In this document: piece after piece, positions 3,444 to 27,793 of the stretch
How the letters are laid out: each line of letters starts with the position of its first letter
Position numbering within the stretch: position 1 is the first letter of the stretch
NCBI GenBank assembly: GCA_028717785.1
Contig: JAQUND010000006.1
Span: 29,530 to 91,264, forward strand
DNA: 61,735 nt
From: Candidatus Nanoarchaeia archaeon
GTDB taxonomy: Archaea; Nanoarchaeota; Nanoarchaeia; SCGC-AAA011-G17; JAFCDX01
Direction of reading: 5' to 3'
Notes under the pieces: generated by a model
Seen by the model: only the letters and a program-made list of their open reading frames with translations
Database searches by the model: none
What the model was told of the DNA's origin: nothing
Made by a program: the position numbers and the translations under genes

Positions 3444-5000
3444 TTAATTTTTTATTGCTGAAATAAAATATTTAGGAAAAAATTTTAAATTTCGTTTTAA
3501 GAAATAAGAAAACTGACTATCCATTATATAAATAGTGCAAAAATCTTTATTATGTCTAACACCTCTACCTGCAGCTTGAACAAGTGTTAATGCAGTTTTC
3601 CAATTATACCATTCAGGATCTATTTCCATTCTTTTTTTCACTTGTTTGTCACCTAAAAACATATAGGGAAGTTTTATAATAACAACAAATCTTGCTAAAT
3701 CATCTTTTAAGTCAATACCTTCTGTCATAGAAGGAGTGACAAGAACTTTCGGGTCTGTAGATTCTAAGAATTGATTCAAAGTTTTCATTCTAGATTCACT
3801 ATCATGGAATATAAACCTATTTATATAGTCATTTCCTATATTATTTTGTATATAATTTGAAATTTTATAAGTATGAGCATGAATTAAACCATGTTCAGTG
3901 TCATGGTAATCAAGTATTTTTCTAATATCTTCAATAATTTTTGGTAAATTGTTGTCTATATCGTTTTTTCCTAAATTACCAGATCGCGTTAAAATTATTG
4001 GTCTTATTTCATTAGAAAAAGTAGAATCTACTTGTATAAATCTTGTTTTTAATTTATCTAGTCCTAAATTATTACAAAAATTTTCTTTATCAAGAATTGT
4101 CGCAGACATAAACAACTTTTTTCTTGCATATTTAAAAATTAATTTTTGAGCGAAATACCCAATAGTTAAAGGTTTAAAAATAATAGATTTTGAACGTAAT
4201 TTTAAATTTGTAGTTATATCAAAAATCCACTCGACTTTATTATAACTTTCTAAGAAAGAACATATTTTTTGTTCTTGTGTTTCTAAATCATTCAGTTCTT
4301 TTTGTAATTCAGAAATTTTTTCTAAGCTTAAAAGTTTATCTTTAAGTTTTTCAGACGCAATTGCTTTTAGTTCTTTAACTTTCTCTAAAATCATTTTTAA
4401 CCAACAAACATAATCTAATAGATTATCATAAGTTGGTATTTTTGAAGTAACTCCAAGTTTAGAGAGATAAATTGACGAAAAACTAAACTCGACAAACGAC
4501 ATACATTCGTCATCAAGTCTATGAGCTTCATCACAAATAAGCAAACTTCTTTCTGAAAAAGCTTTTGTATAATTCATAGTACATAAATAATACTTATAGT
4601 TCATTAATAAAACATGAGATAATAATGCTTGACTTTTCGCTATTTCATAAAGACAACTAGATTTTACTGGACATGGTTTTAATGAACAATAAGAGTCTTC
4701 ACATGTAAGTTTAGGCATGAAAACACAAGGATAATTGTTTCTTCCTTTGATAATTCTTGTTTTATCAGATTTGTAATCTTTAAAATATTGATCTTGTAAA
4801 ATTTTTTGTGAAGTTAACAAAAATGAAGACTTAAAATAAAGACCAAGACAAATTGCTATTGCACTCTTCCCAGAACCTGTAGGACTCTCTAAAACAATAT
4901 TTTCGATTTCTTCAGACTCTATATAATCTTTTGCTTTTAATATAGTTTCTTTTTGGAACTGTCTAAAAGATTCATGTGGAAAATAATCAAAGACATTCAT
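3444..5000 (-). CDS. XPD/DinG-type superfamily 2 helicase with iron-sulfur cysteines
   Basis: 518 residues. Walker A is ESPTGSGKS (about 38-46), the DEAH box is CDEAHRLDDE (about 156-165), and motif VI is QAAGRGVRHNKD near the C-terminus. Between motifs I and II lie cysteines 92, 100, 105, 110 and 116, in the place of the 4Fe-4S cluster domain of XPD, DinG and related 5'-3' DNA helicases. Expected role: unwinding recombination or repair intermediates, R-loops or flaps. The ATG at 5000 overlaps the stop of the NusG-like gene as ATGA, so translation is probably coupled. Five candidate cysteines are present; which four bind the cluster cannot be told. Function within the phage cycle is inferred. 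Confidence 0.85.
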   Translation of the reverse strand: MNVFDYFPHESFRQFQKETILKAKDYIESEEIENIVLESPTGSGKSAIAICLGLYFKSSFLLTSQKILQDQYFKDYKSDKTRIIKGRNNYPCVFMPKLTCEDSYCSLKPCPVKSSCLYEIAKSQALLSHVLLMNYKYYLCTMNYTKAFSERSLLICDEAHRLDDECMSFVEFSFSSIYLSKLGVTSKIPTYDNLLDYVCWLKMILEKVKELKAIASEKLKDKLLSLEKISELQKELNDLETQEQKICSFLESYNKVEWIFDITTNLKLRSKSIIFKPLTIGYFAQKLIFKYARKKLFMSATILDKENFCNNLGLDKLKTRFIQVDSTFSNEIRPIILTRSGNLGKNDIDNNLPKIIEDIRKILDYHDTEHGLIHAHTYKISNYIQNNIGNDYINRFIFHDSESRMKTLNQFLESTDPKVLVTPSMTEGIDLKDDLARFVVIIKLPYMFLGDKQVKKRMEIDPEWYNWKTALTLVQAAGRGVRHNKDFCTIYIMDSQFSYFLKRNLKFFPKYFISAIKN

Positions 5001-5449
5001 AAATATCTAATATCTTTAATATTTATTTGTATTATTCTATCTAAAAACTCTGGTTTTATTCTTACTATTTTTTTTCTTATATCGACTATTTCGCCTGATA
5101 TATCAGAAAAATCACCTTTCTCAATAATTATAAAATCACCCTTTTTAAAAACACTTTTTTCTTTATTTAAATCAGTATTTTCTAGACTTAACTTTTTAAT
5201 TTGAACTGTGCTAAATTTTTTAGGCCCATATTTTTTAGTACCAATAAATTTCAATACTCCATCAAAAACTAACAAACAATCAGATTGTGACTTTGTTATT
5301 TCATAAGAGTGTATTAATATATAACCGGTTAATTCATTAGAAGTAATAACTTCTTTTATATTTAACTCAGTTTTTTTTTGATTTATTTGGTTTTTTACTG
5401 TTTGTTCATAGCCTTGTCTTACTAAAAGAACATACCATGTTAATCTCAA
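4997..5449 (-). CDS. NusG-like transcription elongation factor
   Basis: 150 residues with both NusG domains. The NGN domain starts TWYVLLVRQGYEQTVKNQI (residues 4-22), has the strand TGYILIHS (41-48), and the FIGTKKYGPKKFS segment (68-80) that corresponds to the NusG FVG...P..LS element. The KOW motif is FKKGDFIIIEKGDFSDISGE (101-120). NusG binds RNA polymerase at the clamp and controls pausing, termination and coupling to ribosomes; a phage copy may redirect or antiterminate the host enzyme. There is no ATG: the only start in this reading frame is TTG at 5449, one codon after the in-frame TAA that ends the sigma-like gene. A weak GGA lies upstream. Slightly shorter than bacterial NusG (about 180). 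Confidence 0.8.
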   Translation of the reverse strand: MRLTWYVLLVRQGYEQTVKNQINQKKTELNIKEVITSNELTGYILIHSYEITKSQSDCLLVFDGVLKFIGTKKYGPKKFSTVQIKKLSLENTDLNKEKSVFKKGDFIIIEKGDFSDISGEIVDIRKKIVRIKPEFLDRIIQINIKDIRYL

Positions 5450-6797: not shown

Positions 6798-7922
6798 TTA
6801 ATGTAGATCTAAAGTAAATACGTTTTTTAGTTTTTTTGAATTGTCAAGAGAATCATTAAATTCATCTTCAGAACAATCATCAGGGTCTTTTCCTTCAGGT
6901 AATACTAAGTTAAAAACATCAATATCAGAAAAATACTCTTTTATCATTTTTTGAGCAGCTTCTTGGCCAGGATTAAATTTTTTCCCAAAACTATCTATTT
7001 TATTGTCATTATCTAAAACAACAAAAATCTTTTTAAAATTTTGTGCTAACCTTTTTGCTTTATAACTATTTAGATGACAGCTTAATAGAGCTAAAGCATT
7101 ATACCCAAATTTTAATATTTTTAATGCATCAAAAATACCCTCACAAAGAAATACATCTTCTTTATGTTTTATAGCTTCATCCCAATTAAAAAATAAATTA
7201 CTCATTGGAGTACCACAAGGGTATAAAATTTTTTTATATAAGTATTTATCTATAAACTTTTTTTTATCTTCTTTTTTTAATCTCTTTTGTTTAAGAATAT
7301 TTTTGACTTTTAACCATGTATCTGACTTACCCGACATGTCTCTTGCTGCAAACGAAACTAACTTATTTTCCATATAAATTGGGATTATAAGACGATGATG
7401 ATATACAAAGTCATCAATACAATATCTCATACCATATTTTACTACATCTTCAATACAAACTCTTTTTTTCACTATATCAAAAAACTTTTCAGCAGGTTCA
7501 CTTTTAGGTAGTTTAACTTCACAAAATTCAGGCTCTATTTCAATTTCATTTTCATTTTCTTTATCAAAAAAATTAAAAGAAGAATCGCTTATTATAGAAA
7601 AAACATCGCTATTCTCAGTTATTCCAACCTGATGTTTAATAAACTCTATTGTCTCTTTTGTTGTATTTAAATTCTCTAATTTTTTAATAAATTTTATAAA
7701 ATCACCACCACCACATACAAAACAATTATAAACACCTGTTTTTTGTTGGATTGAAAAGGAAGGAGTAGTATCATCATGAAAAGGACAAAGGCACATAAAC
7801 TCTTTACCTTTTTTTGTATGATATGTTTTAAAATCAATATTATATTGTTTAAATATGATTTCTAAATTGATTTTTGAATATATTTGATTATAAATTTTCT
7901 TATAATCTTCTATCATCTTCAT
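6798..7922 (-). CDS. DnaG-type DNA primase
   Basis: The frame is open from 7958 but I choose the ATG at 7922 because AAAGG lies about seven bases upstream and it reduces overlap with the nuclease gene; a second ATG follows at 7916. Counted from the longest frame, a CHC2 zinc finger (C58, H61, C79, C82, in CLCPFH and NCFVCGGGDFIKF) is followed by a TOPRIM domain with VFLCEGIFDALK and the acidic VVLDNDNK. This is the fold that makes RNA primers for Okazaki fragments. At about 374 residues it is much shorter than bacterial DnaG (about 580), lacking room for the usual C-terminal helicase-binding domain. It sits downstream of the DnaB-like and DnaC-like genes. High confidence. Confidence 0.9.
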   Translation of the reverse strand: MKMIEDYKKIYNQIYSKINLEIIFKQYNIDFKTYHTKKGKEFMCLCPFHDDTTPSFSIQQKTGVYNCFVCGGGDFIKFIKKLENLNTTKETIEFIKHQVGITENSDVFSIISDSSFNFFDKENENEIEIEPEFCEVKLPKSEPAEKFFDIVKKRVCIEDVVKYGMRYCIDDFVYHHRLIIPIYMENKLVSFAARDMSGKSDTWLKVKNILKQKRLKKEDKKKFIDKYLYKKILYPCGTPMSNLFFNWDEAIKHKEDVFLCEGIFDALKILKFGYNALALLSCHLNSYKAKRLAQNFKKIFVVLDNDNKIDSFGKKFNPGQEAAQKMIKEYFSDIDVFNLVLPEGKDPDDCSEDEFNDSLDNSKKLKNVFTLDLH

Positions 7923-8676
7923 GACAAGACCTTTGATATTGACAAAAAAAACAATCATTAATACGCATATTAACTTTAGGTTCTTTTATAAAATCAGTCT
8001 TATGTACTCTTTCTAACATATTGTTAATTTGTCTAAACAAACAAGAAAAATCATTTTCTGTTCTTTGAGAAAATAAAATTTCACCATCAATAGGATATGC
8101 AAGTGCTCCAAAAATATTTTCAACAGAATATTTATATAATTGTTTTACAAAAAACATATAAAAAGTTAATTGAATATTTTCGTCAATATTGTTTTCTTTA
8201 GATTTAGAAGACTTCCAATCAAGACAAATAATATTTTCTAAATTTTTTAATAACAAATCTATTTTCCCAGTCAAAAAAACATTATCAAAATACTTGTTTT
8301 CAAAACGTATTTTAATATATTTTTCAACGTCTAATATTGTATAATCTTTCCATCTTTCTTTCATCTTTTTTACATTACTAATTTGTAACATGCCTTTAAC
8401 AAGATATTCCTTAAAAACAGACTCACTTGGAAATTCAAAATTTTTTTCTTCAGAAAAATAATGTGTTAATAAAATATTTAAAGACGAACAAATTTCATCT
8501 AAAGACAAATTATATTTAAAATGTAATTCTAACGCTTTATGTAAAACAGACCCAAATATAGTATAAATAGAAATTTTATCTGGCACTTTACCATCAATGA
8601 ATTGCCATTTATACATAAATGAACATCTAAAAAAAGAAGAAAGAGATGATGCTGAAATAGATATATAATCCTTCAT
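7900..8676 (-). CDS. PD-(D/E)XK nuclease of the Cas4/RecB type with iron-sulfur cysteines
   Basis: 258 residues. Motifs in order: SFFRCSFMYKWQF with Cys18, GSVLHKALE with His46, TGKIDLL with Asp140, CLDWKSSK with Asp153-Trp-Lys155, and a conserved Gln169 before TFYMFF. The C-terminus has CFFCQYQRSC (Cys242, 245 and 251). One N-terminal and three C-terminal cysteines flanking the nuclease core is the pattern of the 4Fe-4S Cas4/AddB group. Expected role: single-strand exonuclease in recombination or DNA end processing. The start overlaps the trigger factor stop as ATGA and the 3' end overlaps the primase start. There are no CRISPR genes around, so a replication or recombination job is likelier than spacer acquisition. 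Confidence 0.8.
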   Translation of the reverse strand: MKDYISISASSLSSFFRCSFMYKWQFIDGKVPDKISIYTIFGSVLHKALELHFKYNLSLDEICSSLNILLTHYFSEEKNFEFPSESVFKEYLVKGMLQISNVKKMKERWKDYTILDVEKYIKIRFENKYFDNVFLTGKIDLLLKNLENIICLDWKSSKSKENNIDENIQLTFYMFFVKQLYKYSVENIFGALAYPIDGEILFSQRTENDFSCLFRQINNMLERVHKTDFIKEPKVNMRINDCFFCQYQRSCHEDDRRL

Positions 8677-9974
8677 TTATTAAACTCATTTCCTAAAAAA
8701 TCTATTACTTTCTCATTTATAGTTGCTGTTTTCATTAAATTAAATTGACCTTTATTATTTTTTAATTCTTCTTTTACCTTTTCTTCTCTATCTTTTGAAA
8801 ACTTAAGAATATTAGTTACTTTCATTAAATGTTCTGCAACTTCATCTTCATTTACAGTAATATTAAATTTTCTTGCTATTTCTTCTAATACAAGAGAAGT
8901 TTTCAAAACTTCTATTGATTTTTCAGTTGTGTTTTCGAAAAAAATATTTTTTGTTATTTTACGCTCTTTTTCTAGTTGCGCTTCTGTTTGACCCAAACGT
9001 TTTAAAAAACTATTCCATTCTTTTTCGTTTTCTCTGTCTATCATTATCTCTGGTATTGGTGAAATAACAGAACTATTAACTATATTGCATATAACTTGCT
9101 TTTTAAAACTTTCATCTTCTTTCTTTATCTCAGATTTTAAAATTTCGTCTCTTAAAAATTCTTCATATAATTTAATATTGTCAAAACCTTTACTTTTTAC
9201 AAAATTTTCATTATATTCTGGCGTAATTTTTGTCTTAATTGATTTCAAAGTCACGACAAATATAGATTTTTTACTTGCTAAAGACTTTTCTTTATAATCA
9301 GAAGGAAATGACACTTTCACTTCTCTTGTCTCATTAATTTTCATACCTATTAATTGATCTTCAAAATTGTCAATAAATTGTTTTCTTCCATTAACAATCT
9401 CATTTATTCTTAATTGATACCCTTTTGCTATTCCACCCTTAAAAGGCTTTTCTTCGCCCTCAATACGTCCTTCAAAATCTATAACAGCAACATCTAAATT
9501 CTCTAAAACTTCTTTTGAAGTATCTTTAATTTCTTCACTCAATTTTATTTCATTTGTTATTCTATTCTTAATATCTTCTTCTGTAACACTTATTGTTTTC
9601 TTACTAATTGTTTTCTTGACTTCATTAAAATCTGGCAAAACAACACTCGGTTTTACATTAGCAATAAATTCTATAGTAAGCGGGAATTTCTTTTTAAGAT
9701 CTCCAAAAAACTTATAATTCGATGTTTCTACAATTGACGTATCAGCAAAAAAGATGTCATTAAATATTTCATCGATCATGTGTTTATATAACTTTTCTAT
9801 TTCTAAATTAGATTCAGCAACATTTCTCGGAACATTTCCTTTTCTAAAACCAGCAATATGTATATTATGCTTTATTTTATTATAAGCTTTCTCTTTTCGA
9901 TCTTCTAGTTTTTCAGCGTCAATTGTTACACAATATTTCACTGGTGTAGCTAATTTTTCTGTTTTAATTTTCAT
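8673..9974 (-). CDS. tig: Trigger factor, ribosome-associated chaperone
   Basis: 433 residues, practically the length of E. coli trigger factor (432), with all three domains in order. Residues 1-110 form the ribosome-binding domain and hold GFRKGNVPR at 42-50, the signature loop that docks on ribosomal protein L23. Residues about 160-248 form the FKBP-like prolyl isomerase domain (DVAVIDFEGRIEGEEKPFKG, FIDNFEDQLIGMK). PEYNENFVKSKGFDNIKLYE at 252-271 and the helical remainder match the C-terminal substrate cradle. Its ATG overlaps the DnaB-like stop as ATGA, with GGAGG five bases upstream, and its own stop overlaps the nuclease start as ATGA. It is thus built into the replication operon and probably made early. 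Inferred role: folding abundant or aggregation-prone phage proteins on host ribosomes. Confidence 0.92.
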   Translation of the reverse strand: MKIKTEKLATPVKYCVTIDAEKLEDRKEKAYNKIKHNIHIAGFRKGNVPRNVAESNLEIEKLYKHMIDEIFNDIFFADTSIVETSNYKFFGDLKKKFPLTIEFIANVKPSVVLPDFNEVKKTISKKTISVTEEDIKNRITNEIKLSEEIKDTSKEVLENLDVAVIDFEGRIEGEEKPFKGGIAKGYQLRINEIVNGRKQFIDNFEDQLIGMKINETREVKVSFPSDYKEKSLASKKSIFVVTLKSIKTKITPEYNENFVKSKGFDNIKLYEEFLRDEILKSEIKKEDESFKKQVICNIVNSSVISPIPEIMIDRENEKEWNSFLKRLGQTEAQLEKERKITKNIFFENTTEKSIEVLKTSLVLEEIARKFNITVNEDEVAEHLMKVTNILKFSKDREEKVKEELKNNKGQFNLMKTATINEKVIDFLGNEFNK

Positions 9975-11434
9975 TTTTCCTCCACATCCTTTTCTATTAT
10001 ATTTGAATCTTGATCGACACGATCATCATATTTAAATCTCATAATATCAAATTGCTTTACAAAAAATAATTTTGTAAGTCGAGAATCTCTTGTCTTAGGA
10101 AAATATAAACATGCAGTTTCTTCATCTCCTGTTATTCCTATCATATTATCTGTATTATAGCCTAATTTATCAGTGAAAGCAGCATCCATAGAATCAACAT
10201 CTTTTCCATGTAAGTGTCTTTTATGAGACTCTCGATTAAATTGACTTGCACCAATAACAGGAACACCTCTTTTTCTCGCTAAAATCTTTAAATCCCATGA
10301 AATAACACCAACTGGATCATCTGTTTTCTTTTCGCTCGGAGTCATTAAATAAACAGGATCTATAATAATAAGGTCAACTTTTTTACCTGTTGTATTTTCC
10401 CAAGCTGTTACTCTAGAATCTATAAACTGACTATTACAGTTTTGAGGTGCATCGACTAACCAAAAATAATTATTTTTATGTTTTACTTTTAATTTTTTTA
10501 AATGTCCTTCTAAAAAACTTATTTCATTTTCGCTTAATAAATGCGGAAGCTTTATTTTATTATATGCAATTTTTGTAGCTAACGAATTAAATCTTGCACG
10601 TTGTTGTTTTAATGGCATCTCTATAGTAACATATATAACATTATAATTTAATTCGTAAGCATTATATCCAAAATTCAATAATAAGATAGATTTTCCCATT
10701 GATGGACGTCCAAGTACTAAAGAAAATTCACCAGGTTGCCATCCACCTGTAGCTTGATCTATTTTTTCATAGCCTGTAGGTATTCCACGATATTTTTCAG
10801 GGTTTTCTTGTTTATCTTTTAACTCAGCAATATCTCTGTCAATATCATGTAACATGTCTTCTTCTTCAACTTTATATTTACCTGTTGTAAGAAGAATTTT
10901 GTTTACTGAATCTTGTATGTTTTGAGCTAATGAAAGTGCTTCATGTCTTTCGTCAATAAAATCTTGTTTTAACTGATCATTTATTTTTAAATTTATGTCT
11001 AACAAACTTCTATAAAAATATTTTTCTTTTAATTTATCAAATATAGGTTTGAAAGATTTTGTTTCGAACCTATATGAAAAAATTTTATCAAATGCTATTT
11101 TTTTCTGTTCATATTCATCTTTATCTTTATATTTATCGCGCAATTCGTCTAACAAGAATTTCTTAGAAATACATTCTGAAAAAGAAATAAAGTTCTCTAT
11201 TATCTTAGAAAACATCCACTGCTTAAATTCAGAAGTAAACACATCATTAGGCAAACCTATAAAAATAACATAAGATAAATTAGCATTAATTTCATCAATA
11301 TCAATTTTTTTATCAAAATCATTATCAAAAACAAGAAACCTTAATGCTTTAAGTTCTAAAGTTATATCAACAAAGGGTCTTTCTGTATTTTTAGAATTTG
11401 TTTTTTGAAAACTTGTTTTTCTTCTAATAATCAT
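9971..11434 (-). CDS. DnaB-like replicative DNA helicase
   Basis: 487 residues. A helical N-terminal region of about 210 residues precedes the RecA-type core. RGIPTGYEKIDQATGGWQPG is the classic DnaB linker, Walker A is GRPSMGKS (242-249), and Walker B lies in LIIIDPVYLM. IGASQFNRESHKR and the C-terminal KTRDSR match DnaB motifs H3-H4. Hexameric 5'-3' helicase for the phage replication fork, like T4 gp41. Start at 11434 overlaps the loader's stop as ATGA, with AGGAAAA upstream; its stop overlaps the trigger factor start. The canonical leading acidic residue of Walker B appears as IDP, as in other phage DnaB proteins with small changes. High confidence. Confidence 0.92.
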   Translation of the reverse strand: MIIRRKTSFQKTNSKNTERPFVDITLELKALRFLVFDNDFDKKIDIDEINANLSYVIFIGLPNDVFTSEFKQWMFSKIIENFISFSECISKKFLLDELRDKYKDKDEYEQKKIAFDKIFSYRFETKSFKPIFDKLKEKYFYRSLLDINLKINDQLKQDFIDERHEALSLAQNIQDSVNKILLTTGKYKVEEEDMLHDIDRDIAELKDKQENPEKYRGIPTGYEKIDQATGGWQPGEFSLVLGRPSMGKSILLLNFGYNAYELNYNVIYVTIEMPLKQQRARFNSLATKIAYNKIKLPHLLSENEISFLEGHLKKLKVKHKNNYFWLVDAPQNCNSQFIDSRVTAWENTTGKKVDLIIIDPVYLMTPSEKKTDDPVGVISWDLKILARKRGVPVIGASQFNRESHKRHLHGKDVDSMDAAFTDKLGYNTDNMIGITGDEETACLYFPKTRDSRLTKLFFVKQFDIMRFKYDDRVDQDSNIIEKDVEEK

Positions 11435-12174
11435 AATTTTCCTAATAAAGATTGGCCAATGATACTTCTATAATCTTCACCTAACAACTTTATTTCAATT
11501 AATCTTTCTTTAAAATTAGAATAAAGTGCATCACCTAACAAATCTTTATTTACTTCCAAAGGATGGTTTGCAGTAATAATAGTACAAAGATTAGAATCAT
11601 CACGTTTTGTAAATATTTCGTCAATATTAGCACGTTCAGATTTTGATATTTGGTCAAATAATCTTCCTATGTCATCTATAACAAAAAACTTGCAATTATT
11701 TACAACATAAGAAAAATATGCTTTTTTGTCATCGTTTTTCCAACCAGATCTTATAAATTCAACTATTTCTGTAGATCTACTAAAAAAAGAAGAAAAATAA
11801 TTATTTATTGCAGTCTTCAATATTATAATTGCTAAAGCAGTCTTTCCAACACCATGAGATCCTGATAAGTAAAGCCCAATGCCATTTTCTGCAGCTTTAT
11901 CGATAGAGTTAATATATTTTTCTATATTCTTTATTTGCTCTGTATTTCTTTCAGTTGTTTCAATCTTATCTTTAATTGTAGAAAACTCAAAATTAAAATA
12001 TTTTTCTGGTATATTAGCTAGCAGATAGTTTTTTTCTATAAAATTTTCTATTGAACTATAATTATTTAATTTGTCAATAATTTTTTCATTACCAAACGCT
12101 GATATATCAATCATTTTATGAAAATGTGACCAAAAGTTATATTTTACAGAACTATTTCTTTTTCTTAAAATCAT
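11431..12174 (-). CDS. DnaC/IstB-like AAA+ helicase loader
   Basis: The frame opens with a TTG at 12186, but the ATG at 12174 overlaps the upstream stop as ATGA and is the more natural start (247 residues). Walker A is GSHGVGKT, Walker B FFVIDDIGRLFD, and sensor I lies in TIITANHPLEV, with a final arginine-bearing segment NFKERLIEIK. This is the arrangement of DnaC, DnaI and IstB ATPases. Position directly before the DnaB-like helicase supports the loader role. The N-terminal 100 residues, which in DnaC bind the helicase, are not recognisable in detail. Confidence 0.85.
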   Translation of the reverse strand: MILRKRNSSVKYNFWSHFHKMIDISAFGNEKIIDKLNNYSSIENFIEKNYLLANIPEKYFNFEFSTIKDKIETTERNTEQIKNIEKYINSIDKAAENGIGLYLSGSHGVGKTALAIIILKTAINNYFSSFFSRSTEIVEFIRSGWKNDDKKAYFSYVVNNCKFFVIDDIGRLFDQISKSERANIDEIFTKRDDSNLCTIITANHPLEVNKDLLGDALYSNFKERLIEIKLLGEDYRSIIGQSLLGKL

Positions 12175-13058
12175 TGTTGTATCCAATCATAATCTTTTTT
12201 TATATCACTGCTTCTATTTTCCTCTATTAAAATTTTACATCCTATCTCAAATAATCTGTTTAAACCTTTAATATCTTTTGTTCTAAGATACGCCTGATAT
12301 GCTTTATTATCTTGAATCTTCCCTGAAGCTATTTTTATAGCTAATTGTCTGTTACTTTCTTCAAATTCTTGCTTGTATTGTTTTAAACTCAATGTCTTAA
12401 GATCTTCTTTATCTGTTGGCTTATCAGAACGTTCTTCCTGTATTTTTTTCATGATTCCATGAATGTACTGTACGGGCTTTTTAGCATAATAACTTGTAAT
12501 ATAAACATCACATGTTTTTTCCAAGACAATTTGAGGAACATCAAAAAACGGATCAGTCAAAAATTTTATATCTTGTAATTCTACTCTACCTTTTTCTCCA
12601 TAAAGATATTTTATATGTCCTGATATAAGTTCAGAAACTTTTTCTGATAATCTTGGATTAGTAAAACTTGAAACAATTCGCTCTATATACTTTTGAAGAT
12701 AGTCAGCTAAATTCCTTTTTCTTCTAATTTTTATTCCATCATCAGTTAAAGAAACTCTAAATTTATCTTCATTATTAAATATTTTTCCAATATTTAATTC
12801 ATAAGAATTCTGACCATAAACTCTCTTTACTAAATCCCAATAACTTAACTCTCCCCAAGCATATTCTACACGATCTTTATCGTCAGAAACTAATATATGT
12901 TTTTGAAACACTGTAGATGGTATAGAAATCTCATTACCTTTTTCTTTATTATCAAAATAAAAAAAGAAAAAACGAAGAAGTGTACAAAAACTGTCTGGAC
13001 TAAGAAGTTTTAAATATTGTTCTAAGAATTCTCTCGGTATTACACCTTCTACATGCAT
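12171..13058 (-). CDS. DnaD-like primosome / replication initiation protein (tentative)
   Basis: 295 residues. The N-terminal half (about 1-110) has helices and a likely winged hairpin near KIFNNEDKFRVSLTDDGIKI. A second helical part ends in DVYITSYYAKKPVQYIHGIM, resembling the DnaD domain ending (helix, short linker, Y-I-x-x-I-L). In low-GC Gram-positive bacteria and their phages, DnaD-type proteins act with DnaC/DnaI-type loaders to open origins; here the next gene is such a loader, with a 4-base overlap. The ATG at 13058 has only a poor ribosome binding site. The C-terminal third is charged and unrecognised. An unrelated phage replisome organiser remains possible. Confidence 0.5.
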   Translation of the reverse strand: MHVEGVIPREFLEQYLKLLSPDSFCTLLRFFFFYFDNKEKGNEISIPSTVFQKHILVSDDKDRVEYAWGELSYWDLVKRVYGQNSYELNIGKIFNNEDKFRVSLTDDGIKIRRKRNLADYLQKYIERIVSSFTNPRLSEKVSELISGHIKYLYGEKGRVELQDIKFLTDPFFDVPQIVLEKTCDVYITSYYAKKPVQYIHGIMKKIQEERSDKPTDKEDLKTLSLKQYKQEFEESNRQLAIKIASGKIQDNKAYQAYLRTKDIKGLNRLFEIGCKILIEENRSSDIKKDYDWIQQ

Positions 13059-19490: not shown

Positions 19491-19613
19491 TTAAACCCTC
19501 CTCTTTATAATTTCTTTGCCTGTTTTATCTCTTAAAATTAATATTGCATTATCATTTGATGCTTTTAATTTTTTATATTCGTCAGAAAGCACTGGTTTTT
19601 TTTCTTTATTCAT
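19491..19613 (-). CDS. 40-residue protein between the giant adhesin and the tail-associated protein
   Basis: ATG at 19613 overlaps the stop of the 2727-residue gene as ATGA, and the TAA at 19491 touches the GTG of the next gene. The protein starts MNKEKKPVLSDEYKKLKASN and ends KEIIKRRV; it is lysine-rich with no known motif. The perfect fit between two genes supports translation, if only as a coupling device that carries the next ribosome binding site. Function unknown. Confidence 0.55.
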   Translation of the reverse strand: MNKEKKPVLSDEYKKLKASNDNAILILRDKTGKEIIKRRV

Positions 19614-22600
19614 TCTAATCTCCTTGTCAAAAATTCAAAAAGTAAAAAGCAATTATTAGAACTTTTTTCACAAGAAATATTGAAATAATTTCCTGTCTTA
19701 ACTATGTCATAATAGCTATTATACTCACTTTGAGAAATAATTTCTATTATTTCTCCACTTGTAACATCAAAAACATGAAAATATTTACTACTTGCTACAA
19801 AAATATATTCATTGTTTATAGCAATATTCATAACTCCTGTGTCTTCTTCAAACATATCAAAAGTATCTAACAAAACAATTTCGCTTCCAGTAAACTGTAA
19901 TAACATTGTATACCCTGAATTTATTGGCAATGTTCCATTAAAACACCCTGCAACAATAAAATTCTCATTAAAAATTCTTAATTTATTTATACTTGTACCA
20001 TAAGATTTAGGATCTAATTGAGGAGTTCTATATATTTCGTTAAAAATAGAGCCATTAAATCTAAGAACAGAAATATAAGAAGAAAAAGAAACAAATATAT
20101 CTTCTCCAACACAATCTACACTATAAAAAAATTCGCCTGGAACATAAAATTTATCAATATACACTGTTGAACCTGTAGTAGAATTAAAACTAAATGCATA
20201 AAGACCTTCAGTTCCACATGCAGCATATAAATACCCATTAACATCAACACACATATCGTTTGTATTTTGACTTGATGGAAACACAGTCGAAGAAACTATA
20301 GAAAAAGAACCATTAAAAGTCAATGTTATTAAATTAGAATTTAATCCTATGTCTTTTGCATTAACTAATAAAAAGCCTTCTTTACAAATAATAGAATTTG
20401 TCATAGAAAAACCCAATGTCGACAAATTTGCTACTTCAATTAATTCTTCTGAAACTATATTATAAGCTCTAATTTCACTTGATCCTGTCCAAGATTTATA
20501 AATATATGTTTCGTCACTTGAAGAATATCCAGAATAAATACCTCCTATATTCAATGTATACAATTCTTCTAAGAAAATTAAAATAGCAGCATCATGTTTT
20601 CTCCACATACTATTTATAAATGATGACGCATTTAATCTATATCTTATATCATTTAAGAAAGTAATAGAGCCGTTTATATCTCCCAACATTAAAGGTTCTT
20701 TAAAATCAGCTATCACTTTCAAATCTTCTTCTGTACCAGGAAATTCTTGTCCAACATACGGGTTTCCTATATACATTAACCTATGGTGTAAAGTAATTAT
20801 AGGAGTGTCTTGATGTCTCCATAAATGGTTTAATATTGAAGTACCATTAAGTCTATATCTAGTATCATTCATATATGTAACACGCCCGTCAATACTTCCC
20901 AACATTAAAGGCTCTTTGAAATCAGATATTCTTTTAAACTCTTCAGGAAAATCTGGTATTATATCAGGATCATCTTCTATACTACCAGGGAAAGAATAAC
21001 CTACATAGGGATTAACATTAAAACTCATACTTATAGCAATAAAATCTTGTTCGCATATATGAGCATGTAATTCTACTTCTGGAGGTTGTATCCTACCTAT
21101 GATATTTTCAAAATAATTTGTTCTTTTTTCTATTATGAAACCTTCTTCATCAGAATCTATAATAAATTCATTGACATTACTAGACAAAATATTAAAATAA
21201 CTACTACCATGACAAAAAATACTACCAAAATCGTTTAAAATAAACGTAACTGCTCTATAAACAAAATACTTATTATATTTATATGTTACAAGTACTATAC
21301 TGCCATAAGGAGGAACAATACCTATAATAATATGTCCAGTTAAAGGATTAATTTCTGTTATTGTCACTCCCACGCCATTTACAGTCACAAACACATCAAC
21401 TATAGTTGCAACATGAGTTTCATCACGTAATAAAGGATAACGATAAGTATAAAAAAAGTTTTCAATACCAGAAAATTGATAAGAAACATCTTCAGTATAA
21501 GTATCAATTCTTATTAAACTACCTAAACAATTATGTCTAACATCTTCAACAATAAAATTATTAAAAGAATATTTATATCTATCACATATAGCTGTATCTG
21601 ATTGAGTTTCAGCAGCTTGAAAACCATCAAGTGCAATAAGGGGTACTCTATTCCCGAACTGATCTATTACGTCATTCCCAAACTCATCTTGTTCCCATTT
21701 TAATATACAACCAGCTTGAAAATCAAACTCTTCTGACCACACAAAACGTTGTATAAAATAAACATGTGCTGGTTTTACTAAATTAAAAATATTAGCAAGA
21801 TTATTGTTTAAAGCAATAAGATCTATACTCTTAAATTGATCGTTTATTACCAAATCCGCTGTAAAAACAAATTGATCAGATATATCTGAACCTTTTGAAA
21901 AAACAACTTCTATTATCTTTATTTCTGAACCTATATATAAAGCAACACCAGATTCTAAAGACGTTTTTAATGAACCTTTAAAAAGTATGCTAATAAGAGA
22001 TTGCAATAAAAGTCTATAATCATTATGAGAAAAATCAACAGAGGGTTTAACATCAAGCATATAACCTAATTTAGTATATAAAAATTGAGGCCTAAGTGTA
22101 GAATAACTTCTATCTTCATTTAAATGACCAATTTCTTCTAAATGTCTTGCAAGTTCTAAAGATATTGCTTTATGATGTCCATAAAAACTAGTAGATCTAG
22201 ACCTTGTATAATTGCTTGCAATATTATTTCTAATATCATTTATATATGTTAAAGCAACTCGATTAAGATAATTACGCTTTTTTATCGAAGGTGTCGCGTA
22301 AATATGAGGTATGAAAACATAAGAAAACAAGTCCATTATGTTTCCTGAATAATCAGAAGCTGCAATAGTAACTGAAACTATTGATTTATGTTCGAAACTA
22401 AAACTCGGACTAGCAAAAACTAAATATCCATTATTTCTTTCTATAAAAGAAAAATTTTGGTTTTCTTCTGGTGGATATAAATCTAAAATATTAGAATCAA
22501 GAATGTCAAGATCAGTTACGTTAAGTAATAATGTACTTTCTTTTTGTTCGAATCTAATATCTAAAATTGTTGCTGTATAATTAGGCAAACTATTTAAATA

Positions 22601-25600
22601 TTGTTCTATTTTTTTTATTGTATTATAATTTGAGTCATAAAAACTAATAGATATATCTTTTACAGAATCAATATAAGTAAAAAGATTTTTATTGCTTACT
22701 TGACATATAGCAGATGAAGCTATTCCAGTATACTGTATTTCTAAAATATTTCTATAATTAATTTTAAATTCTATATCATTAATTGTTATAATTACGCTTT
22801 TTATATCTACACCTGATTGTGCATCATCAATATAAGCAATAACGTTTGAATTAGTAGAAACATCTTGTACGTTTGGTGCAGGATATACTTCTCTAACCCA
22901 TGGAGGTGTTGTATCTGGTGAAACTAGATTAAATTCAATTACTGGTGTTATGTTTCCAGCAAAATCTTCTATATTTTTTATTCTTAAAACTTCTACATCT
23001 TGAAAATTCAATAAACCTGTAATAGGAGTAATTCTTATTAAATATTCTTCTGGCGTACCAGCATAACTAAAATATGTCTCATTTTTTGACGTAGAATAAA
23101 CAATACCATCTACATCAACAATAATAGAGTCAATATCAACACCCGAAAGAACATCACCCACTCTAAAAGAGATTTCTGTTGTACTATCAGTAATTATACA
23201 ACCTGTTGGTAAAAAATCAGAAACTTCTGGATATTCTAAGTCTAACTTTATATCTTGAGTTTTTATAGACTCTATATTCCCAGCTCTATCGACAGAAAAG
23301 TATTTTAACACATAATCTGCAGAAACATTAAACTCTATAAATGTTCCTGTTTGAGACGAAAAATCTGGATCTGTTCCATCAGTAGTATAATAAGTTTCAA
23401 GTAAACCAGATGATTCGTCATTAACAATGAAACTTACAATATGATTAGAAACATAATCGACTGAATGTACATTAGTGGTAGTTACAGGAGTTATAGAATC
23501 ATATTTTAATATTGCAACTCTTTCTATTTCTATATTTCCTGCAACATCAACACTATAATATGTTATGCTAACTATACCTTGTTTAGATAAAAGAAATGGC
23601 GATGTATATTCAATAAAAGGTCCATCATCAATCTTATAAAAAGTTTGTCCAAGCCCAGAAAAATTATCAACAACAGTAAAACCAATTGTTGGTTGCGACA
23701 CAAACCACCAATTATCACCATCGGGTGTAATAGGTACAGTATATATTGATGTTAAAGGCGGGTCAGCATCAACATTAATAGAAGTAGTGTCTATTTTTAC
23801 TGATTCTATGTTTCCAGCTACATCAACAGAAAAATATTGTAAATTATAAACACCTGATACATTAAAAATTATGTTTTCTCCATAAGGAGACAAAATTGTA
23901 GGAGTAGAACCATCAGTAGTATAATGTGTTTTGTCAATACCAGATCCAGAAACATTGTCTATTGCAATAAAATCTACAGTTACAGGTGCTTTTAACCATC
24001 CAGACTCTATAGGTAAATGTGTCGTTTCAGGCGCGATTTTATCTAATTTAAAACTTAATTCATATAGAAAACTTTGTTTTTTAGGAACACCAGTTCCTAA
24101 AACTGTATTATGATCAAAAACTCTTGCATAAATAGTATGTTCACCTTCTTCATGAAAAAATTGACTTGGAGAAGAAGGAAATGTTACTAAAAAATTCGCT
24201 CTATCATTTGACAAATCAACAAATTTAGAAATATCACCATAAATTGTTGTTGTTATATTTAATGTTGCAGTGTCTAACCCTAATTTTACATTATCAAGAC
24301 CAATATAATGAGTATAATCTACACATATTCTGTCTTTTATAGAATACAATGCTTTGTAATCATAAGAATCAACATAAAAAATAGTTACTTTATTAGTTAT
24401 AGAGTCATACCCATAATCAACACCTATAATTAAAGGTACAGAGTTTTTTGTAATTATCAAGGTTCCAGAAACAGGTTTATCGTCTAAATAATCGTAATTT
24501 CGTCCTCCGACGCCAGGTAAAATTTTTAATACTTGATTTACATTTATTGTTGATGGCAATGATATTGGACTATAAACCAATATCTCATTATAAAATCCAG
24601 GATTTCCTTTTAGTATCTCTACACATATCAATTGTTTATTAGAAATAGAAGTTTTAATATCTTCTACTGATTTAACAAAATAATTGCTTAATAAAAATCT
24701 ATAATAAATTGACGAATAAGAACTATAACCAATAGAATCTTGAACAGGATATAAAGGATTTGAAGAACTAAAACCTATTGTTTTTGCTATTGTTGTCAAA
24801 GAATTAGAACCAGTAGCCCATAAAATTTTAAAAACTCCACCTCCACCAGAAAGATCAGAATTTATTTCAAATCTTTGAGCTTCTGAAACATCATCGTCAA
24901 TTAAATTTACAATATAATTAGAATTTCCTGCTAAATTTAAAGCGTTTTCTATTTCTTGCGCTAACTGTACCCCTGTGTATAATCCTGGTAAAACTATTGC
25001 AGTTAATTCAACACTTGATGTTTCTTCAAAATCTATACAGTCGTTTATCCCAGCTTCAACTAAATAATTTGATATTTCGACAACATCTTCATTATATCTA
25101 TTTGTCTTATCTTCTGACCATAATGCAATATTAAGACTAAAATCATTTACATGCCAACCATTACTACCATCAGGTGGAGGCACTGTAGTTATCTCTAAAG
25201 CAGGTATGTGTTTGTCAATTATTATATCATATAAAGCTGTTTTTACAGGTTCTATATTACCAGCAGAATCTATAGAAAAATATTTAAGCGTATATGTGCC
25301 GGGTTCATTAAGATTAACAGATGTTCCTTGCGTTGAATCAACAGTGGGTTCTGACCCATCAATAGTATAAAAAGTATGTACTACGCTTGAAAAAACATCA
25401 ATAGGTAACAAATTTATTGTTATATCATAGTCTATCACATAAGGTTGAACAATAGGTTCAATTAAAGAATAATTAGTAGAATTTAAAGGTTGAGGATCAT
25501 GCGAATTATCAAAAGCATAAGAAAGATTTATAATATCATTAACAGAAAGAGGAACTCCAGAAAAACTATAGTCTACAGATAGTATATCGTTTTCGTTTAT

Positions 25601-27793
25601 AGGTTTATCACCTTTTAAAAATAGATTACCATTTAAATCTGATAATTCATAATCTATCCTATAATAAACATTACTTGACCTATTATAAATTTTAGAGACG
25701 TTTCCAAAATTTGGTAAAATAAAACTTCCCAAACCAGTTAATTGTATATTATATGCATCTAATCTATCAGAGTTCTCATTTCTATTAATAGGTAATAGAA
25801 TTAACTCGTTTTTATTAACACCTGTTATTTGAGACAACACATATTCTTGTGATTTAGTTATGTTATAAATATAAGGTGCAGCAACTACATTCAAGTTTCT
25901 CGTTTGAATTGTATAAGGTCCTATAACTGTCGGATTTTCTTCGCCTATTTGTTGATGTCCAGAACCTTTTGATGTAAAAATAACACCTTGGTAATTAAAC
26001 GTATCATCAGTAGTTACAGGTGATGATTGATCAAATTTATATTCAAATATTTTTTCTGTCTCTTCATTTCCTGCAACATCAATTGAATAAATATTGAGAT
26101 AATGAACACCTTCGCTTGGAATTTGAATTATGTCGTCTATAAAATATTCAATCCATGGATCTGTATTCCAACGATAATATGTTTTAAAAACACCTGAAAG
26201 ATTATCTGCAACTTGAATTGATATATTTGGATTTGTTACATACCAACCATTATTTCCATCTGGTTCATAACTATTAATTACTGATGAAATTGGTTTTTCT
26301 GTATCAAGCTTATAAAGTTTTGAAAAAATATTACTTTGATTATCTTTGTTGTCTACAGAATAAAATTCAATATTCCAATATTCATCGTATGGTATATTAA
26401 ACGAATTTGTATAGGGTACAAAAACAACAGTTTCTGTAAAAGTGTGAGGATAAGAAGTTTCATCTAAACCAAAAACTTCACCTGTTATATCATTACTTAA
26501 TACTTGTAAAAATTTTATTTCAGAAGAAGCATTACCTGTACCTGCAGTTGGTGATGTAAGAGTAATATAACCATTTCCATCATTACCATCAGATCCTGTT
26601 TGAGTTGCAATTACTTGGCCAACAATACCATTAATATTATTTATAATTTCTACTATTGTAGTTTGTTCCGGTATTACGCCTCTTAAATTTATTTCAAATG
26701 GTTCTTCGCTCTGATCAATTTCTATATTAATATAATGATTTATTGACATATCTACACTAGAAGAAATATCGACAGTACTTGTATATTTAGCAGTAGTATC
26801 TTTTCCTACAGGATGTAATTTATATTCAATTTCTTTTATACCAGAAAGATCTACAGCATCAATAGAAATATCTGGTGATGAAACATACCAACCCTTATTC
26901 CCGTTTATAAGAAAACTCTCGCGAATGTACACATTTGGTGCTTCAGTATCAATAAGAACTTCTATTTGACAAGATTTTACTGTTTCTATATTTCCAGCAA
27001 AGTCTATAGAAAAATATTGTATAGTATAAAAACCAGTATCAGAAATAACTACAGAAGATCCAGAGGTTGAACTTGTCGTTGGAGTTGAACCGTCAATAGT
27101 AAAATAAGTTTTATCAACACCTGAATACAAATCGGAAACAAAAAAATTAATTGTTACAGGTTCTCTATATAAATCATCTAAAGAATCGTCTTGAGTAAAA
27201 GGCGAATTATAATCAAATTTAAAAAATACAGTTTTGACTTCTTCTACATTGCCCGCAACATCTTCTGAAAAATATTGTAATTGATGAATACCTTCACCAG
27301 GTATAGAAAAAACAGAAGCAGGTATGTATTCTTGAAAAGAATCAGAATTAAATCTATAATATGTTTTTAAAACTCCAGATGATTCGTCTGTAGCAATAAA
27401 AGATATATCAGGATTTGTTTTATACCAACCATTTAAACCATCAGGGCCTTCAACAACACAATTAGTTACAGGTGGCACATCATCTAATTTTATAATAACT
27501 GTTTTTGTACTTTCAGTATTACCTAAATTATCTACTGAATAAAAAGATATTGGAATTTCACCTTGACCTGAAACAATAAAACTTGTAATATTATCAGGTT
27601 GGTTTGGACCATAACTAACAGGAGAACCATTTATTGAATAATAAGTCCTATAAACACCTGAAGGCGTATCATGTTCAGTGTTTGCATAATCTACAGCATG
27701 TAATTCTATAAATATTTGTCTGTGTCTATTCCAACCACTAGATATATTACTATTAGTAATAGGAGGTATATTGTCTGTTATTGGCATTTTCAC
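19610..27793 (-). CDS. Giant tail adhesin with Ig/OmpL47-like repeats and C-terminal beta-propeller
   Basis: 2727 residues from a GTG at 27793 (GTGA overlap with the upstream stop); an ATG at 27787 is an equal alternative. Residues 1 to about 1720 hold roughly a dozen modules with SGVxKTYYxxDGS and YFSxDxAGNIE, the pattern of OmpL47-type and chitobiase-C-terminal-like beta domains. Around residues 900-1010 a flagellin-hook-IN-like module is inserted. A copy of the EDVSxQFxG module lies near 2100. Residues about 2280-2320 and 2360-2395 are a tandem duplication (DFKEPLMLG...RYRLN). The last 300 residues contain repeated strands such as DVNGYLYAACGTEGLYAFSF, resembling LVIVD/YVTN propellers. Read as a long stalk carrying a receptor-binding tip. 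Host specificity is not deducible. Confidence 0.7.
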   Translation of the reverse strand: MKMPITDNIPPITNSNISSGWNRHRQIFIELHAVDYANTEHDTPSGVYRTYYSINGSPVSYGPNQPDNITSFIVSGQGEIPISFYSVDNLGNTESTKTVIIKLDDVPPVTNCVVEGPDGLNGWYKTNPDISFIATDESSGVLKTYYRFNSDSFQEYIPASVFSIPGEGIHQLQYFSEDVAGNVEEVKTVFFKFDYNSPFTQDDSLDDLYREPVTINFFVSDLYSGVDKTYFTIDGSTPTTSSTSGSSVVISDTGFYTIQYFSIDFAGNIETVKSCQIEVLIDTEAPNVYIRESFLINGNKGWYVSSPDISIDAVDLSGIKEIEYKLHPVGKDTTAKYTSTVDISSSVDMSINHYINIEIDQSEEPFEINLRGVIPEQTTIVEIINNINGIVGQVIATQTGSDGNDGNGYITLTSPTAGTGNASSEIKFLQVLSNDITGEVFGLDETSYPHTFTETVVFVPYTNSFNIPYDEYWNIEFYSVDNKDNQSNIFSKLYKLDTEKPISSVINSYEPDGNNGWYVTNPNISIQVADNLSGVFKTYYRWNTDPWIEYFIDDIIQIPSEGVHYLNIYSIDVAGNEETEKIFEYKFDQSSPVTTDDTFNYQGVIFTSKGSGHQQIGEENPTVIGPYTIQTRNLNVVAAPYIYNITKSQEYVLSQITGVNKNELILLPINRNENSDRLDAYNIQLTGLGSFILPNFGNVSKIYNRSSNVYYRIDYELSDLNGNLFLKGDKPINENDILSVDYSFSGVPLSVNDIINLSYAFDNSHDPQPLNSTNYSLIEPIVQPYVIDYDITINLLPIDVFSSVVHTFYTIDGSEPTVDSTQGTSVNLNEPGTYTLKYFSIDSAGNIEPVKTALYDIIIDKHIPALEITTVPPPDGSNGWHVNDFSLNIALWSEDKTNRYNEDVVEISNYLVEAGINDCIDFEETSSVELTAIVLPGLYTGVQLAQEIENALNLAGNSNYIVNLIDDDVSEAQRFEINSDLSGGGGVFKILWATGSNSLTTIAKTIGFSSSNPLYPVQDSIGYSSYSSIYYRFLLSNYFVKSVEDIKTSISNKQLICVEILKGNPGFYNEILVYSPISLPSTINVNQVLKILPGVGGRNYDYLDDKPVSGTLIITKNSVPLIIGVDYGYDSITNKVTIFYVDSYDYKALYSIKDRICVDYTHYIGLDNVKLGLDTATLNITTTIYGDISKFVDLSNDRANFLVTFPSSPSQFFHEEGEHTIYARVFDHNTVLGTGVPKKQSFLYELSFKLDKIAPETTHLPIESGWLKAPVTVDFIAIDNVSGSGIDKTHYTTDGSTPTILSPYGENIIFNVSGVYNLQYFSVDVAGNIESVKIDTTSINVDADPPLTSIYTVPITPDGDNWWFVSQPTIGFTVVDNFSGLGQTFYKIDDGPFIEYTSPFLLSKQGIVSITYYSVDVAGNIEIERVAILKYDSITPVTTTNVHSVDYVSNHIVSFIVNDESSGLLETYYTTDGTDPDFSSQTGTFIEFNVSADYVLKYFSVDRAGNIESIKTQDIKLDLEYPEVSDFLPTGCIITDSTTEISFRVGDVLSGVDIDSIIVDVDGIVYSTSKNETYFSYAGTPEEYLIRITPITGLLNFQDVEVLRIKNIEDFAGNITPVIEFNLVSPDTTPPWVREVYPAPNVQDVSTNSNVIAYIDDAQSGVDIKSVIITINDIEFKINYRNILEIQYTGIASSAICQVSNKNLFTYIDSVKDISISFYDSNYNTIKKIEQYLNSLPNYTATILDIRFEQKESTLLLNVTDLDILDSNILDLYPPEENQNFSFIERNNGYLVFASPSFSFEHKSIVSVTIAASDYSGNIMDLFSYVFIPHIYATPSIKKRNYLNRVALTYINDIRNNIASNYTRSRSTSFYGHHKAISLELARHLEEIGHLNEDRSYSTLRPQFLYTKLGYMLDVKPSVDFSHNDYRLLLQSLISILFKGSLKTSLESGVALYIGSEIKIIEVVFSKGSDISDQFVFTADLVINDQFKSIDLIALNNNLANIFNLVKPAHVYFIQRFVWSEEFDFQAGCILKWEQDEFGNDVIDQFGNRVPLIALDGFQAAETQSDTAICDRYKYSFNNFIVEDVRHNCLGSLIRIDTYTEDVSYQFSGIENFFYTYRYPLLRDETHVATIVDVFVTVNGVGVTITEINPLTGHIIIGIVPPYGSIVLVTYKYNKYFVYRAVTFILNDFGSIFCHGSSYFNILSSNVNEFIIDSDEEGFIIEKRTNYFENIIGRIQPPEVELHAHICEQDFIAISMSFNVNPYVGYSFPGSIEDDPDIIPDFPEEFKRISDFKEPLMLGSIDGRVTYMNDTRYRLNGTSILNHLWRHQDTPIITLHHRLMYIGNPYVGQEFPGTEEDLKVIADFKEPLMLGDINGSITFLNDIRYRLNASSFINSMWRKHDAAILIFLEELYTLNIGGIYSGYSSSDETYIYKSWTGSSEIRAYNIVSEELIEVANLSTLGFSMTNSIICKEGFLLVNAKDIGLNSNLITLTFNGSFSIVSSTVFPSSQNTNDMCVDVNGYLYAACGTEGLYAFSFNSTTGSTVYIDKFYVPGEFFYSVDCVGEDIFVSFSSYISVLRFNGSIFNEIYRTPQLDPKSYGTSINKLRIFNENFIVAGCFNGTLPINSGYTMLLQFTGSEIVLLDTFDMFEEDTGVMNIAINNEYIFVASSKYFHVFDVTSGEIIEIISQSEYNSYYDIVKTGNYFNISCEKSSNNCFLLFEFLTRRLE

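Follow-up and report, generated by a model that had tools for sequence, protein, structure and literature searches.

Why would a phage keep, among the genes that replicate its DNA, a chaperone that belongs at the ribosome? This question is raised by a stretch of 61,735 nucleotides from contig JAQUND010000006.1 (positions 29,530 to 91,264, deposited as Candidatus Nanoarchaeia archaeon; the whole stretch is called the window below), whose minus strand carries a gene for a trigger factor (TF), a ribosome-associated helper in the folding of newly synthesised proteins. The window protein is a genuine, intact, full-length TF, which is phage-encoded and lies within a phage replication operon, and two clades of uncultivated large phages carry such proteins, one of them with many metagenomic members. 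It probably serves as a ribosome-docked nascent-chain chaperone for phage proteins, acquired long ago by large tailed phages.

The gene and its parts are located as follows.

8673..9974, minus strand: phage TF of 433 amino acids (aa) with an N-terminal ribosome-binding domain, an FKBP-type peptidyl-prolyl isomerase (PPIase) domain, and a C-terminal cradle (Pfam, TIGR00115, structure)
9552..9974, minus strand: Trigger_N domain, residues 1-141 (Pfam, 75.7 bits)
9825..9851, minus strand: codons of the ribosome-docking loop G-F-R-K-G-N-V-P-R, residues 42-50 (read from the sequence)
9246..9506, minus strand: FKBP-type prolyl isomerase domain (FKBP_C), residues 157-243 (Pfam, 42.5 bits)
8694..9167, minus strand: Trigger_C domain, residues 270-427 (Pfam, 63.2 bits)

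The frame runs from an ATG at 9974 down to 8673 without an internal stop codon. Its product scores 250.4 bits against the NCBIfam equivalog model TIGR00115 ('tig'; cut-off 180.2), which is likewise passed by all eight phage TFs scanned, and all three Pfam domain scores exceed the curated cut-offs; a chance match is excluded by the size of these scores. The signature loop GFR(K/P)GxxP is present as GFRKGNVP (residues 42-49, aligned with residues 43-50 of the Escherichia coli protein), and at the positions of E. coli F168, F177, F198, Y221, and F233, which we take to be those of the PPIase active site, the aligned residues of the window TF are F, F, F, Y, and F. The predicted fold of the whole chain, including the C-terminal helical cradle, matches that of E. 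coli TF.

On the minus strand, the gene order is DnaC-like loader, DnaB-like helicase, TF, PD-(D/E)XK nuclease, CHC2/Toprim primase, and an unknown 398-aa protein, with the following coordinates.

11431..12186, minus strand: DnaC-like helicase loader (Pfam IstB_IS21, phrog_50)
9971..11434, minus strand: DnaB-like replicative helicase, directly upstream of TF (Pfam DnaB_C, 104 bits; phrog_19)
9979..9983, minus strand: GGAGG ribosome-binding site, 4 bases ahead of the TF start codon ATG (read from the sequence)
9971..9974, minus strand: ATGA overlap of the helicase stop and the TF start (read from the sequence)
8673..8676, minus strand: ATGA overlap of the TF stop and the nuclease start (read from the sequence)
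7900..8676, minus strand: PD-(D/E)XK (Cas4/RecB-like) nuclease, directly downstream of TF (Pfam PDDEXK_1, 85 bits; PHROGs)
6798..7958, minus strand: DnaG-type primase with CHC2 zinc finger and Toprim domain (Pfam, PHROGs)

The 398-aa protein is followed by a NusG-like protein, a DNA helicase (PHROG 2488), an exonuclease (PHROG 107), and a weakly UvsY-like gene, and elsewhere the window carries tail sheath, baseplate wedge, tail fibre, and phage DNA-metabolism genes, as judged from PHROGs. An earlier reading made from the letters of the window (the sequence-only reading) had described a full-length 433-residue TF with docking loop, FKBP-like domain, and cradle, which was preceded by a GGAGG site and joined to its neighbours in a replication operon by two ATGA overlaps. 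The protein so described is borne out by Pfam, TIGR00115, and the fold, and its setting by the sequence and Pfam.

The NusG-like protein in this operon (4997-5449, minus strand, 150 aa) matches an antiterminator PHROG and scores slightly below the Pfam cut-off for NusG; L002 and L003, two of the viral contigs described below, have relatives in the corresponding position. Between the tail genes, a 1536-aa protein (33172-37782, minus strand) contains repeated immunoglobulin-like domains of the ASH/HYDIN/Cep192 type, families which are mainly known from eukaryotic cilia and centrosomes. Next to the baseplate gene lies a 2727-aa protein (19610-27793, minus strand) with several CHB_HEX_C_1 and Fn3-associated domains.

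Since TF is widespread in bacteria and host tig contigs are labelled as phage in curated collections, the gene might be suspected to be a recent pick-up of a host tig, or to lie on a host contig misjoined to phage genes, in either case without a phage function. A protein search with the window TF gave 234 proteins at E 0.001 or better, the best 120 of which were examined: 24 relatives (P0002-P0025, one of them a 299-aa fragment), which belong with the window protein to a group called clade I here, share 38-60% identity with it, after which the values drop to 33% or less among the matches listed, where the named proteins are bacterial. Identity to bacterial TFs is about 30%. When bacterial and archaeal genomes were scanned with the clade alignment, the best 80 of 522 confirmed matches were all at 33% identity or below, and no clade I member was seen in a host genome among them. 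In IMG/VR, members of the clade occur on four contigs (TF identity 38-53%), all of which keep the order loader, helicase, TF, nuclease, primase, with small extra open reading frames (ORFs) within this block in L003 and L005, and the 192-kb contig G002 is collinear with the window in the structural genes too, its tail sheath being 64% identical. Moreover, no ClpX zinc finger was found in G001-G004, and neither clpP nor clpX was detected by tblastn in L002-L005. The gap in identity, the shared operon position, the collinearity, and the missing clp genes make a recent pick-up from a host or a misjoined contig highly improbable. The nearest relatives are phage proteins rather than host chromosomal copies, and TF is kept in the replication operon of one phage lineage, which supports the phage-encoded TF described in the sequence-only reading. 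Note that no terminase was found in G001-G004 with the profiles PF03354, phrog_2, and PF03237, so that the phage identity of these contigs rests on their tail and replication genes; either their terminase lies outside these three profiles or the contigs are without one. The tail sheath profile PF04984 gave matches below its cut-off in 4 of the 28 TF-carrying viral records.

The nuclease following TF in one of the contigs (L004:11296-12099) is divergent, with 36.5 bits to a profile of its four sister sequences, and its neighbours are not; it gave no BLAST match to the window nuclease and was identified by Pfam, a pattern which looks as if the gene had been exchanged.

Scanning with a broader TF alignment gave 37 viral loci. 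Clade I additionally includes L129, L134 (a 416-kb contig), L136, and L137, all of which lack a small insertion in the PPIase domain, around NEIVNGRKQFI, that is present in the subclade of the window. In a second clade (clade II), DNA polymerase III alpha is encoded a few genes downstream of TF; it is annotated in L125 and L151, and the other loci show the same cluster of genes. When 15 clade II and 4 outer clade I proteins were aligned, at least 1,513 database proteins were matched, some of which may be bacterial; 30 proteins, taken as every fourth of the best 120 matches (one being identical to an existing row), all fall into the two phage clades in a tree. Besides repeated loci, several host-like or partial ones were set aside: L120, which has tig-clpP-clpX and gave no TF frame; L122, which has clpP and groups with the bacterial proteins P0068 and P0086; L124 and L126, which group with the same two proteins; L135, which groups with L122, L124, and L126; L119, a long branch next to Bacillota; L145 and L150, where only the FKBP part was matched; and L141 and L154, from which no TF frame was recovered. 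As side observations on clade II loci, a sigma-70 region 2 protein is encoded two genes upstream of TF (L125:4281-5144; the compared loci contain 7 members of its sequence cluster, c20), and small proteins with CHB_HEX_C_1 and Fn3-associated domains adjoin the nuclease in L125 and L151.

The tree comprises 80 rows, of which 19 belong to clade I, 21 to clade II, and 40 are bacterial or host-like. They were selected from 248 rows and 20 further bacterial loci (of 24, the others lacking a usable frame), which do not include E. coli. Clade I is supported by 100/96 and grouped (95/99) with Bacillota proteins and L182, a Cetobacterium contig. The phage search and the tree with bacterial TFs that the sequence-only reading had called for yield a phage clade with 33% identity or less to the bacterial proteins. 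Clade II is placed elsewhere in the tree, with 62/99 when the long branch L155 is included and 93/92 for its main part of 15 rows. Forcing all phage TFs together costs 21 log units, with a borderline p of 0.041 in the approximately unbiased (AU) test, whose groups were named after a first tree. A single origin of all phage TFs is disfavoured by the separation of the clades and by this borderline value, and two separate acquisitions by phages appear likely from the tree.

What has been retained in these proteins was assessed from an alignment of 18 clade I, 20 clade II, and 36 bacterial rows with E. coli Tig, from which L133, L155, and four host-like viral rows were excluded. G43, F44, R45, and G47 are invariant in every row of the three groups, and K46 is a lysine in 17 of 18 clade I, 18 of 20 clade II, and 18 of 36 bacterial rows; F44-R45-K46 are presumably the residues contacting the ribosomal protein L23. 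Positions 43-50 form the best-conserved stretch, with mean conservation values of 0.87 (clade I), 0.94 (clade II), and 0.85 (bacterial), compared to 0.39-0.68 for four larger regions, and the docking residues are indeed kept, as had been noted from the window alone. The isomerase site behaves differently in the two clades. F177, F198, Y221, and F233 are retained in all 18 clade I rows, in 10, 18, 7, and 15 of the 20 clade II rows, and in 20, 30, 27, and 33 of the 36 bacterial rows, the loss in clade II being clearest at Y221 (7/20 versus 27/36 in bacteria). Of eight clade II proteins scanned with Pfam, all contain Trigger_N and Trigger_C and four pass the FKBP_C cut-off; a precomputed FKBP_C match is missing in 73 of 120 proteins of the search with the 15 clade II and 4 outer clade I proteins, among the matches listed, and in none of the window TF and its 24 clade relatives. 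Part of clade II has an eroded prolyl isomerase domain. Docking loop and cradle are the common core of the phage TFs, because both are kept while FKBP_C is variable. Fixed docking residues combined with an eroded isomerase domain would also suit a protein that merely occupies the exit site, displacing the host TF and other factors from L23 and thereby disturbing host folding or targeting. However, the N-terminal domain alone would suffice for such a blocker, yet Trigger_C is kept in the window TF and all eight clade II proteins scanned, and the isomerase site is retained in the clade of the window, which renders this explanation improbable.

The main rival explanation follows from the gene neighbourhood. 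A PD-(D/E)XK nuclease is encoded within three genes of TF and on the same strand in 26 of the 28 viral TF loci, following TF in clade I and preceding it in clade II; L133 and L155 are phage-clade members without a nuclease in the stretch examined. Pfam confirms a PDDEXK_1 nuclease in all 25 loci scanned (L152 repeats L151 and was not scanned apart), and a nuclease profile built without L004 detects it in 16 of 28 loci. For some TFs, a role in the assembly of complexes is known (compare the title of structures 3gty/3gu0), and the phage protein might accordingly do most of its work away from the ribosome, as a folding or assembly helper for its operon partners, i.e., the nuclease, the helicase, or the polymerase. 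The nuclease linkage in both clades agrees with this explanation, as does the location of TF between helicase and nuclease in clade I and near DNA polymerase III alpha in the annotated loci of clade II. Nevertheless, we consider it unlikely: in both clades no stretch is better conserved than the docking loop, which a purely off-ribosome chaperone would not need, and early genes of many functions cluster in huge phages, so that the linkage may reflect timing only. In addition, loader, helicase, and primase are directly consecutive in L110, as are helicase and primase in L098, without TF between these related genes. More distant phages with a related helicase or primase seem to lack TF, which would make it an optional gene: none was found with the clade I profile in the 17 records searched of 21 found, nor among the ORFs of all 21 loci, where it should be considered that this profile could miss a clade II protein and that the records are mostly fragments.

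A ribosome-docked chaperone is favoured instead, because the protein is full-length, the docking loop is fixed, the isomerase site of clade I is intact, and relatives are accompanied by tRNAs and transfer-messenger RNA (tmRNA). G001 contains 18 tRNAs and a tmRNA (127 bits against an Rfam gathering score of 47), and ARAGORN predicts 16 tRNAs in G002. Among the 28 TF-carrying records, which are fragments in which absences of translation genes mean little, a tmRNA above the gathering score occurs in four (G001, G026, G029, G034) and a peptide deformylase (PDF) in seven, all of clade II, with none in G001-G004; in six of the seven, two of which repeat one TF, the PDF gene lies about 9-13 kb upstream of TF. 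The tmRNA of G001 (L163:15991-16396, minus strand) has an unusual predicted tag with the end TIVA.

According to this proposal, TF would be produced together with the helicase, nuclease, and primase, and its GFRKG loop would dock it on host ribosomes at the L23 exit site, where it would add to or displace the host TF. The cradle would then catch nascent chains, helping phage proteins to fold during the burst of phage synthesis, and the clade I proteins probably also speed proline isomerisation, because their isomerase site is intact. Ribosome binding, competition with the host TF, the timing of expression, and the identity of phage clients are inferred here. As a further and much more tentative step, it may be proposed that large phages captured TF at least twice and fixed it near the PD-(D/E)XK nuclease in the replication module, and that a phage-specialised exit-port kit, consisting of TF and in some cases PDF and tmRNA, replaces the host TF during infection and steers folding toward phage proteins.

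Several observations weigh against a ribosome-docked phage chaperone. The window itself contains no tRNA or tmRNA, and its TF gene is placed among replication genes, not among translation or virion genes. The full-length TM-scores are moderate (0.49-0.60 by query length against 1w26, 2vrh, 3gu0, and 3gty), and identity to L002/L003 is lower for TF (52-53%) than for the helicase (69-71%) or the loader (74-77%). Only 9 positions are invariant across the 19 phage TFs of alignment A5, and the docking stretch is as conserved in bacterial TFs (0.85), which shows, at the level of the alignment, that docking is kept rather than phage-special. The placement of the gene also leaves the idea of virion clients without positional support; the giant beta-rich proteins in the window could be clients, but nothing links them to TF.

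The sequence-only reading had further stated that no common phage group is known to carry TF. This holds for curated collections as far as they were inspected, but was too narrow in view of the two uncultivated large-phage clades. When GenBank phage records were searched by tblastn, the four phage TFs used as queries matched 27, 30, 31, and 29 records. These sets largely coincide, and identities lie at about 20-36% except for two short matches at 42% and 49%. Of the 27 records, 12 were inspected; in ten of these, tig is accompanied by clpP and/or clpX, so that they look like host DNA labelled as phage; CAKLQH020000005, OR844993, and MT835536 are examples of host chromosome deposited in this way. 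Neither clpP nor clpX lies near tig in L213 (an Enterococcus-phage record) and L217 (MT835501). PHROG 26774, a family of unknown function not labelled as TF, matches the window protein over residues 1-427 (149.6 bits), and the JGI (Joint Genome Institute) annotation names some of these proteins 'trigger factor', while the predicted viral structures of BFVD gave 258 matches, none at E 0.001 or better. The literature searched, which excluded most subscription journals and all of bioRxiv, yielded no report of a phage TF; in the relevant part of PMC12697855, TF is used as a solubility tag. It appears that the sequences are already in databases and that their meaning is unreported.

From phage genomes, tRNAs, ribosomal proteins, translation factors, and PDF are already known; a full ribosome-associated chaperone would add a co-translational folding step, which suggests that large phages may direct not only the synthesis of proteins but also their folding. 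The question whether viruses control the occupancy of the ribosome exit port thus becomes testable, and the phage proteins provide a natural series of TFs that all keep docking, with a prolyl isomerase domain that one clade retains and that is eroded in some members of the other.

Compared to known systems, the window protein shares with bacterial Tig (E. coli, 1w26) the order of the three domains, the GFRKG docking loop, the FKBP active-site residues, and the cradle fold, whereas the gene lies in a phage replication operon instead of a tig-clpP-clpX locus as in E. coli. Phage T4 encodes folding and assembly helpers of its own, gp31 and gp40, which serve GroEL or head-vertex assembly and belong to families unrelated to TF; to our knowledge, they are not known as ribosome-bound. 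Huge phages have been described to encode IF1, IF3, S4, S1, S21, L7/L12, EF-G/Tu/Ts, PDF, RF1/2, RRF, tmRNA, and SmpB (PMC7162821), and the main text of that report contains neither 'trigger factor' nor 'chaperon'. The phage TF resembles those genes in being a phage copy of a host translation part of the kind thought to redirect host ribosomes, and differs from them in that its presumed target is the nascent chain at the exit port. The phage PDF, noted in the same report, likewise acts on nascent chains at the ribosome. It is, however, an enzyme for the first residue, whereas TF is a chaperone.
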